From Candidatus Saccharimonadota bacterium (GTDB taxonomy: Bacteria > Patescibacteriota > Saccharimonadia > Saccharimonadales > Saccharimonadaceae): a DNA stretch of 34,353 bases. The translations under genes and the position numbers were made by a program. Numbering within the stretch: the first letter of the stretch is position 1; each line of letters begins with the position of its first letter. Shown in pieces: positions 1 through 15,532 of the stretch. The stretch lies in contig JAILQE010000005.1 in assembly GCA_024699125.1 (NCBI GenBank), positions 1-34,353 on the forward strand, written 5' to 3'. The notes under the pieces were generated by a model. That model was given only the letters and a program-made list of their open reading frames with translations. It was not told the DNA's origin and did not search any database.

Positions 1-377
1 CTGGGCCGTGTCTCAGTCCCAGTCTGGATGATCATCCTCTCAAACCATCTAACGATCGTCGACTTGGTAGGCCGTTACCCTACCAACTATCTAATCGTAC
101 GCAGGCCAGTCCCAAACCGGATAAATCCTTTAATCCGAAGATCATATGCGGTATTAGCTAATCTTTCGACTAGTTATCCCTCAGTTTGGGGTCCGTTCCC
201 ACGCGTTACTCAGCCGTCCGCCGCTCGTCAGCAGCTTCACTGTTCCCTCGAAACTAACAACCTACGATAGCACGCTAGGTGTGTCAAGGAAACGGTGAAG
301 CCCTGTTACCGCTCGACTTGCATGTATTAGGCACGCCGCCAGCATTCATCCTGAGCCAGGATCAAACTCTCCATTAA
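1..377 (-). rRNA. rrs: 16S ribosomal RNA, 5' part (truncated by window edge)
   Basis: Read on the minus strand, the segment begins with the universal 5' element AGAGTTTGATCCTGGCTCAG (positions 351-370). It contains the ACGGGTGAGTAACGCG-type conserved block and ends at the window edge in CTGAGACACGGCCCAG, which corresponds to about E. coli position 337. The mature 5' end is placed near 377 by analogy with E. coli. The piece is about 40 nt longer than its E. coli counterpart because helix 6 (V1, about 233-302) is extended. The rest of the rRNA operon lies outside the window to the left. Confidence 0.97.
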
Positions 378-11547: not shown

Positions 11548-11583
11548 AAAAAACGAATCGGAATTCACTTTCGATTCGTTTTT
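11548..11583 (-). terminator. tmRNA terminator (possibly bidirectional)
   Basis: AAAAACGAATCG and CGATTCGTTTTT form a perfect 12-bp stem with an 11-nt loop and T-runs on both strands, 50 bp downstream of the tmRNA 3' end. A second small palindrome ACTTTCTTTCAAAGAAAGT lies between them (about 11604-11622). Confidence 0.75.
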
Positions 11584-11633: not shown

Positions 11634-11991
11634 TGGTGGAGCTGCCGGATACTGCCTCCGGGTCCGAAAAATCACGTGGATATCATTCTACGCGTATAGT
11701 CTGCTGTTTCATCTCGGCGGATACTAGCAGCAGCAACAAACCAAACTGCTAGACGCCATGACTAAATTTTCGAGCAACTTGTCGTCAGTTAAATCACCTT
11801 ATTCCCGTTGTATGATAATTCGAATCCTACGGAACCTTAAATCCGAACCAGCCTATAGATATAAATTAGGCAAAAGCTGGCATGTATGCAACATGCGTTA
11901 GCTTAGTGTTTTTAGCACTTATTTAATACTTACGGTATTCAATCGACGCGCCTGATATCTGTTAATAATCCGTCTAAGCTTTGTCAGCCCC
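11634..11991 (-). ncRNA. ssrA: Transfer-messenger RNA (tmRNA)
   Basis: 358 nt; rescues ribosomes stalled on broken mRNAs. The 5' GGGGCTG pairs with 3' CAGCTCC followed by ACCA, giving the alanine-type acceptor. The long helix under the tRNA-like part is seen as GATATCA and CGCG near the 5' end pairing with CGCG and TGATATC near the 3' end. The conserved ATTTTTCGGAC precedes the T-arm. The tag reading frame starts at GCT (11916-11914) after the typical TAAGT context and encodes AKNTKLTHVAYMPAFA, stop TAA (11868-11866). The T-arm stem CCGGA/TCCGG is intact but its loop is GGCAGTA, not TTCRANY. The D-loop region also lacks the usual GG. Identity is secure; the loops are unusual. Confidence 0.93.
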
Positions 11992-12002
11992 AACTATCTG
12001 TT

Positions 12003-12031
12003 ATTATAGCACGCTTCCCTTAAAAACTCAA
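12003..12031 (-). promoter_or_regulatory. ssrA promoter
   Basis: Minus strand TTGAGT (12031-12026), 17 bp, TGC-TATAAT (-10 at 12008-12003). The expected start at 11996 is five bases before mature tmRNA G1. Confidence 0.8.
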
Positions 12032-12118: not shown

Positions 12119-13633
12119 ATGATCGCAAAAATATATTCTGCCATTCCTTACGGTTTTGAGGGCCGGCTAGTCGAGGTTGAGGGCGATATCAACCGCGGCC
12201 TCCCCGCTTTTAACATCGTCGGCATGGCCAATAAAACCATCAATGAAGCCAAGGAACGTGTCAAAAGCGCCATCTTGAACTCTGGGTTTATGTTCCCGAG
12301 CAAAAAGATCACCATCAATCTCGCCCCAGCAGATCTCCTAAAAAACGGCTCATTTCTAGACCTACCCATTGCGTTATCGGTGCTAGTCCTCTCTGGCCAG
12401 CTACTCGAACGAGACCTAGAGGGTAGTTTGTTCGTGGGAGAGCTCTCTTTAACTGGCGAGCTTCGCCCCGTGAAAGGCATCATCAATATCGTCGAATTGG
12501 CCAAGAATTCTGGCACTCGCAAAGTGTTTGTGCCAATTCAGAATCTCCCGCAAGCACAGCTAGTGAAAGGCGTCGAAATATATGGCGTAAAAACGCTAAA
12601 AAGCTTGTTCTTACAACTCAAAAACCTCCAGCCGCTAACTAATGCGTCTAATTCTAAAACCGGGCTTAAAACGGCTCCTACGGCCTCGCTTGGGCCGTTT
12701 CTAGACCATATTAGGGGCCAAGAGCTAGCCAAACGCGCCATGGCAATTGCCGTGGCTGGGCATCACAATATCCTCATCTCCGGGCCACCAGGGGCTGGCA
12801 AAACCCTGCTCGCCCGTGCTGCCGCAAATTTACTGCCGGATCTCACCGAAGAGGAGCAGATCGACATCACCAAAATCTACTCCCTGGCTGGTCTCACAAA
12901 TGACGAGATCATTAGTTCCCGCCCCTTTAGAAGCCCCCATCATACCTCTAGTTTAATCTCGCTCGTGGGCGGTGGCGCTAGCATTACCCCTGGAGAAATT
13001 TCATTAGCTCATAAGGGCATTCTCTTTCTAGATGAAATCCCCGAATTTCCACGAGCTACCCTAGAATCGCTCCGCCAACCCCTGGAAGACAAAACCATTT
13101 CCCTGGCCCGCGCCGGCGAGAAAACTACCTATCCTGCCGATTTCATGCTGATCGCCACAATGAACCCCTGTCCATGCGGTTATTACGGCGACCCAACTCA
13201 TCGGTGCACCTGCACCACCACGCAGATCCAGAACTACAAAAGAAAGCTCTCCGGCCCACTTTTTGACCGCATAGACCTTAATATTACAGTCGAAAAAGTA
13301 AAAAATACTGAACTCATAAACAACGAAATAACAGATAGAAAACAGCACGACGTTGTAAAAAACACAATAAATAACGCCATCAAAGCCCAACAAGCACGTT
13401 ACGGCCGCCCCGGCATCTTTAATAGCTCGCTTTCGTCCTTTGAAGTGTCAAAATTACTCGTTTTAGAACCAGCAGCCAGACGCTTACTTGCCGAAGCGTC
13501 CGAAAGGCTCAACCTTTCCGCCCGTGCCTATTTCAAAACCATCAAGGTCGCTCGTACCATTGCGGACTTAGACGGTTCAAGCACCATCAAAACCGCCCAC
13601 ATCACTGAAGCGCTCAACTTCAGAAAACGCTAA
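12119..13633 (+). CDS. comM: ComM/YifB-family Mg-chelatase-like AAA+ ATPase
   Basis: 504 residues. The start at 12119 (MIAKIYSAIPYGF) matches where ComM proteins begin; a 46-codon upstream extension of the frame runs through the ssrA 5' region and is not used. The N-terminal lon-protease-S5-like domain contains GLPAFNIVGMANKTINEAKERVK. The AAA+ module has Walker A GPPGAGKT and Walker B ILFLDEIPEF, followed by the cysteine cluster PCPCGYYGDPTHRCTC, and a C-terminal Mg-chelatase domain closes the protein. ComM is a hexameric helicase that promotes branch migration when transformed DNA recombines. With the VirD4-like ATPase nearby, this supports, but does not prove, natural competence. Confidence 0.95.
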   Translation: MIAKIYSAIPYGFEGRLVEVEGDINRGLPAFNIVGMANKTINEAKERVKSAILNSGFMFPSKKITINLAPADLLKNGSFLDLPIALSVLVLSGQLLERDLEGSLFVGELSLTGELRPVKGIINIVELAKNSGTRKVFVPIQNLPQAQLVKGVEIYGVKTLKSLFLQLKNLQPLTNASNSKTGLKTAPTASLGPFLDHIRGQELAKRAMAIAVAGHHNILISGPPGAGKTLLARAAANLLPDLTEEEQIDITKIYSLAGLTNDEIISSRPFRSPHHTSSLISLVGGGASITPGEISLAHKGILFLDEIPEFPRATLESLRQPLEDKTISLARAGEKTTYPADFMLIATMNPCPCGYYGDPTHRCTCTTTQIQNYKRKLSGPLFDRIDLNITVEKVKNTELINNEITDRKQHDVVKNTINNAIKAQQARYGRPGIFNSSLSSFEVSKLLVLEPAARRLLAEASERLNLSARAYFKTIKVARTIADLDGSSTIKTAHITEALNFRKR

Positions 13634-15173: not shown

Positions 15174-15189
15174 GTCTTATACAGACTTA

Positions 15190-15526
15190 AATGAGCTATC
15201 GATAAGCCGGGTTCTGTATCTATACAAAGTATAGACGATGACCATCTATCTAGACGCTACATTGCTATAGCGCTCAAGCGGTGAGCGTGCATCCCCGAGT
15301 CAGGGTATCTAGCACTCCTTGCAGCCAGTAGGGTTTGCCTCTGTAACGTGTCGCCACATCACACTGTGAGCTCTTGCCTCACTCTTTTCACCTTTGCCTG
15401 TAAAACAGGTAGTATTGTCTCTGTGGTACTTTCCCTATTCTTGCGAACGGTCGCCGTTAGCGACTACCGTGCTCTTTGCTGCCCGGACTTTCCTCTTGGT
15501 AACCCAAGCGGTCATCTTTCAAGCTC
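15190..15526 (-). ncRNA. rnpB: RNase P catalytic RNA
   Basis: The ribozyme that trims tRNA 5' leaders. On the minus strand it contains the invariant GAGGAAAGTCCGGGC near the 5' end and ACAGAACCCGGCTTATCG near the 3' end, the two conserved halves of the catalytic core. The 5' GAGCT (15526-15522) pairs with AGCTC (15197-15193) as P1, fixing the ends near 15526 and 15190, about 337 nt. The expression signal is TGC-TAAAAT (-10 at 15538-15533), whose +7 position is 15526. Confidence 0.95.
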
Positions 15527-15532
15527 CCCTAT

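Follow-up and report, generated by a model that had tools for sequence, protein, structure and literature searches.

In a canonical T-loop, the closing pair is U54·A58, of the trans Watson-Crick/Hoogsteen type. In the 2004 work of Doyon, Steinberg and co-workers, selected suppressor tRNAs reportedly needed either G18 together with U55 or A18 together with G55; that rule is said to come from in vivo selection in the laboratory, whereas the same rule is encountered here in nature, in tmRNA, and repeatedly in evolution. In the elbow of canonical tRNA, residue 18 intercalates between residues 57 and 58, with G18 bonded to pseudouridine 55, and the exposed pair is G19=C56 (PMC4810234). The trans Watson-Crick/Hoogsteen family also includes a nonstandard 54/58 pair of eukaryotic tRNA-Ala and initiator tRNA, where an A54·A58 purine pair replaces U·A with retention of the T-loop fold, measures 12.5 Å against 9.8 Å for U·A, and is accompanied by no 18/55 exchange in the excerpted text of that source (PMC7566577). 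In tmRNA, m5U and pseudouridine are known modification sites of the T-loop (PMC3968760). Guanines replace U54-U55 in the mitochondrial tmRNA of Reclinomonas americana, and G replaces U55 in Caulobacter tmRNA, according to the excerpted part of Burks et al. 2005 (PMC1168896), which mentions neither the D-loop partner nor an exchange at 54/58. The two-piece tmRNA of Alphaproteobacteria (alpha_tmRNA, RF01849) combines, in nearly all usable sequences, a GGCRGTA T-loop with A18-G19.

The window, that is, the whole 34,353-nucleotide stretch of DNA analysed here, contains an intact one-piece tmRNA gene (ssrA) of 358 nt, including the encoded ACCA, at 11634-11991 on the (-) strand (Table 1). The original prediction of a tmRNA is confirmed by a covariance match to RF00023 that runs end to end (11991-11634, model positions 1-374) with 83.2 bits against a gathering score of 47 (E=4.8e-31); besides this full-length match, the gene has an acceptor with G3·U70 and CCA as well as a tag frame, and the genome encodes SmpB. 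It is the single tmRNA match above the Rfam cut-off in its own genome (765,546 bases, rated 98.8% complete), where the remaining RF00023 matches score as tRNAs. Like the two-piece alphaproteobacterial tmRNA, it carries the GGCRGTA type of T-loop with A18-G19, but RF01849 tmRNA is circularly permuted and made of two RNA pieces, whereas the window gene is one piece in the standard order, with the D-loop at the 5′ end and the T-arm at the 3′ end; in agreement with this order, Rfam reported no tmRNA_permuted in the window, the best match of the clan being RF00023. The Reclinomonas and Caulobacter RNAs likewise share G at 55 with it, but are organelle and two-piece forms, and the eukaryotic tRNAs have A·A where the window tmRNA has G·G. 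The tag frame begins with an alanine resume codon and closes with a hydrophobic tail and a stop; the tag and its AFA ending had been read correctly at the outset, and this ending is ordinary, differing by a single step from the AYA with which tags of the genus end. The predicted promoter is good and precedes the mature 5′ end by 11 nt, and the candidate terminator, which has an 11-nt loop and an AT-rich stem, was not called by the terminator scan. The T-arm folded alone was uninformative beyond its stem (z -0.3). Elsewhere in the window, a gene for a ComM/YifB-type Mg-chelatase-like AAA protein (12122-13633, +) is divergent from the tmRNA, a class A RNase P RNA gene (15188-15527, -) lies ∼3.2 kb away, and a 16S rRNA gene occupies 1-377 (-), so that the window begins inside it.

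Table 1. Features of the ssrA locus, in window coordinates.
Feature	Position	Strand	Basis and remarks
Sigma-70-type promoter, TTGAGT-17-TATAAT, TG before -10	12003..12031	(-)	10/12 matches, consensus match only
5′ acceptor strand GGGGCUG	11985..11991	(-)	sequence; pairs with 11638-11644; G3·U70 is the alanine identity pair
D-loop ACAAAGCUUAGAC; A18=11980, G19=11979, C20=11978	11972..11984	(-)	sequence; register from alignment with >200 relatives
Tag reading frame AKNTKLTHVAYMPAFA + UAA	11866..11916	(-)	sequence; conserved in genus
T-stem 5′ strand CCGGA; closing pair A53-U61, not G53=C61	11657..11661	(-)	sequence
T-loop GGCAGUA; G54=11656, G55=11655, C56=11654, A57=11653, G58=11652	11650..11656	(-)	sequence
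T-stem 3′ strand UCCGG	11645..11649	(-)	sequence
3′ acceptor strand CAGCUCC	11638..11644	(-)	sequence
Encoded 3′ ACCA	11634..11637	(-)	sequence
Candidate terminator, inverted repeat of 11 bp without mismatches (AAAACGAATCG/CGATTCGTTTT) + T run, downstream of ssrA	11550..11582	(-)	by eye

Compared with canonical tmRNA of the E. coli type (RF00023), the window gene has the same gene order, G3·U70, tag frame, CCA, G19, C56 and purine 57, but differs at positions 54, 55, 58 and 18, and in its genus the T-stem is closed by A-U rather than G=C. It has G at 54, 55 and 58, so that the canonical U54, U55 and A58 are absent, together with A at 18, whereas C56, the purine at 57 (A57) and the D-loop G19 are present. 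The D-loop had been described as devoid of GG, which is true of the dinucleotide itself; the loop reads A18 G19 C20, however, so that just G18 is replaced and G19, the partner of C56, is in place. Elbows were parsed from >200 tmRNAs of the order Saccharimonadales and of the phylum, with a few loci and the permuted genes re-parsed or left out of the T-arm parse and two loci (L118, L124) one base off register. The T-loop GGCAGTA is found in 34 of the 34 tmRNAs parsed from the same genus, all of which also close the T-stem with A-U and have the AGC D-loop. Since every one of these relatives shares the T-loop, the unusual loops are not an error, and chance or faulty assembly can be excluded; the search among relatives for a normal T-loop, proposed as a check on the loop read initially, thus returned none within the genus and spoke for a real feature. 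A genome-wide habit of tRNAs was likewise ruled out, as TT is retained at 54-55 by every tRNA detected in this genome (36/36), where the GG change is confined to tmRNA. One member of the genus (G175, 99% complete) gave no tmRNA above the cut-off even with lax filters, and its ssrA may be lost, diverged or unassembled.

Beyond the genus, the base at position 18 follows that at 55. Among distinct Patescibacteria tRNA-like domains, the combination A18/G55 occurs 95 times and G18/U55 60 times, whereas A18/U55 (3) and G18/G55 (2) are rare, the D-loop register being assigned in each case from the distance to the conserved GAC, as the length of this loop varies by 1-2 nt; in the remaining domains, position 18 is C or U, position 55 is C, or G19 cannot be clearly placed. 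Both G18/G55 cases read AGG in the D-loop and may, by homology with relatives, represent A18-G19-G20. When the D-loop spacing was kept fixed and G19 was not required, 40 tmRNAs with C56 had A18-G19/G55 and 39 had G18-G19/U55, and A18-G19 occurred with U55 in only 2 tmRNAs. On a maximum-likelihood tree of SmpB, at least 15 changes fall at position 55, and in 15 contrasts on separate tree paths position 18 switches along with position 55 in 14 and in the opposite sense in none, albeit on a short and weakly supported tree in which just 4 of the 15 contrasts fall on well-supported branches. A18 is not absolute: several G55 tmRNAs carry C18 or U18, or lack a clear G19, so that looser contacts may be tolerated in some elbows. 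In tmRNAs with G55, position 20 is free, with C, U, A and G all seen.

Positions 54 and 58 change together as well. Across the parsed tmRNAs they read U·A in 134, G·G in 76 and C·A in 3, next to a few A·U, A·A and pyrimidine pairs, and no clean half-changed form (G·A or U·G) was present among them. C56 is retained in 212 of 221 tmRNAs and a purine at 57 in all 221. The GGCAGTA loop is also carried by the tmRNA of TM7i (L354), a cultivated Saccharibacterium. A third T-loop type, YUCAYUA, with a pyrimidine at 58, was seen in five loci (L157, L163, L311, L330, L305), four of which have U18-G19, and it occurs beside the A18/G55 type inside one family (f80). T-loops of 6 nt (CTCATA, ATCAAA, TTCAAT) were parsed in L105 and L113 of the order and in L159 and L162 of the phylum; they are possibly a further elbow variant, possibly a parsing artefact.

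When named genomes were scanned for GGAC-N5-GGCAGTA-N5-CAGCTCCACCA, matches came from Saccharibacteria and from at least eight Alphaproteobacteria, and the five of the latter that were scanned with Rfam all match the alpha_tmRNA and permuted-tmRNA families. Nearly all of 55 usable alphaproteobacterial two-piece tmRNAs have a GG-C-R-G T-loop, and 54 of the 55 combine G55 with A18-G19, the other one reading GGC with G55 in the fixed register. These sequences mark the Alphaproteobacteria as an independent replicate of the 18/55 pairing, and the GGCRG loop is thus the rule in one bacterial class and recurs in another phylum. It probably has separate origins in Alphaproteobacteria and in Saccharibacteria, which are unrelated lineages.

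Taken together, the window gene is very probably a working tmRNA with a tRNA-like elbow built from alternative but equivalent tertiary contacts. Because the odd bases switched jointly here, in many other lineages and in almost every alphaproteobacterium sampled, the elbow is most likely kept by substitute base contacts and not lost. In such an elbow, G54·G58 would replace U54·A58, presumably within the same trans Watson-Crick/Hoogsteen family, A18·G55 would substitute for the specific contact G18·U55, and the purine at 18 would still be inserted between purine 57 and base 58; we infer the geometry of the G·G and A·G pairs from the sequences, and the greater width of purine-purine 54·58 pairs relative to U·A weighs against this reading. 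The outer pair G19=C56, whose flat face is read by the ribosome, would be unchanged, and with the elbow folding normally SmpB, EF-Tu and AlaRS would use it as usual. Because both uridines are gone, the window tmRNA would be unable to receive m5U54 or pseudouridine 55.

The original prediction, right as to the tmRNA, its loops and its tag, had interpreted the loops as the loss of both docking partners, with the elbow held by SmpB or another factor. The SmpB gene of this genome (PF01668, 110 bits, G000:C7:70815-71183, locus L005:1468-1881), which was to be inspected on this account, is indeed unusual: the central segment has 11 residues versus 20 in Aquifex and Thermus, and just 13 residues, versus about 20, follow the DKR motif to the C-terminus. 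Such remodelling would suit an elbow held by protein, the more so as a contact with the tRNA-like domain has been attributed to the central loop of SmpB (PMC4131195). Loss of this loop has been described for Carsonella, Hodgkinia and hemoplasmas (PMC4131195). The 11-residue loop is however limited to the clade of the window, being shared by four sampled relatives (L266, L279, L283, L284), and to scattered others, and it does not follow the T-loop class: many species with GGCAGTA have a full-length SmpB loop, and canonical T-loops occur alongside some of the short-loop SmpBs, so that loop loss fails to explain the elbow. The shortened SmpB is rather a noteworthy second oddity of this clade. Moreover, conservation of G19, C56 and purine 57, together with the correlated exchange of 18 with 55 and of 54 with 58 throughout the phylum, would not be expected of a dispensable contact, so that the loss of both partners is contradicted and a truly lost contact relieved by SmpB or another factor is very improbable.

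A different docking, in which G19=C56 and C20=G55 form an antiparallel kiss of two base pairs, is suggested by the AGC D-loop of Saccharimonadales, the antiparallel complement of G55-C56, which is present in 101 of 111 cases. Yet canonical G18/U55 tmRNAs, too, most often have C at position 20, the same position of A18/G55 tmRNAs outside the order is C in 20, U in 8, A in 7 and G in 2, and in Alphaproteobacteria it is mostly G; it is position 18, rather than 20, that changes along with 55. This freedom of position 20 in G55 tmRNAs disfavours C20-G55 pairing, and we consider the kiss very unlikely. Drift of an elbow under relaxed constraint, in a tmRNA grown unimportant in reduced genomes, could be read from the small genome (0.77 Mb), the truncated tail and loop of SmpB and the 149 of 392 order members that have no tmRNA above the Rfam cut-off under strict search filters that lose weak matches. 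Drift is hard to reconcile with an identical T-loop in every genus member parsed, a conserved tag frame, 54/58 pairs that are never half changed, the unaltered TT of the tRNAs in the same cell and the fixation of the same loop in large-genome Alphaproteobacteria; it is largely refuted and extremely unlikely.

The window ssrA was undetected by ARAGORN, and in a bare test this program detected 0 of 76 G54..G58 tmRNAs, compared with 50 of 70 U54-G55 and 51 of 64 canonical ones. Annotation that relies on ARAGORN is therefore biased against the G54..G58 class, the genes of which are likely missing from such annotations. A literature search in which coverage of key papers was incomplete returned no description of the loop in Patescibacteria, Saccharibacteria or candidate phyla, and no published description of 18/55 coupling in tmRNA. 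The GGCRG loop itself is not new, because among the sampled Alphaproteobacteria it is near-universal in two-piece tmRNAs, together with A18-G19; what is new, as far as the literature searched shows, is that G54-G55 is spread among one-piece tmRNAs, that tmRNA follows the 18/55 rule and that ARAGORN is blind to such genes.

More tentatively, and with considerable doubt on our part, A18·G55, often joined by G54·G58, might constitute a second elbow code exclusive to tmRNA, one that evolved many times and became fixed in Alphaproteobacteria and most Saccharimonadales while the tRNAs of the same cells stayed canonical; a code of this kind would escape the enzymes that modify U54 and U55 and may help to tell tmRNA from tRNA. 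What looked like a defect would, with substitute contacts, become natural evidence that the long-known elbow contacts 18/55 and 54/58 are exchangeable as units, and have been exchanged many times. The exchange concerns an RNA that the ribosome still has to accept as a tRNA, and it predicts a tmRNA elbow that would do without m5U54 or pseudouridine 55.
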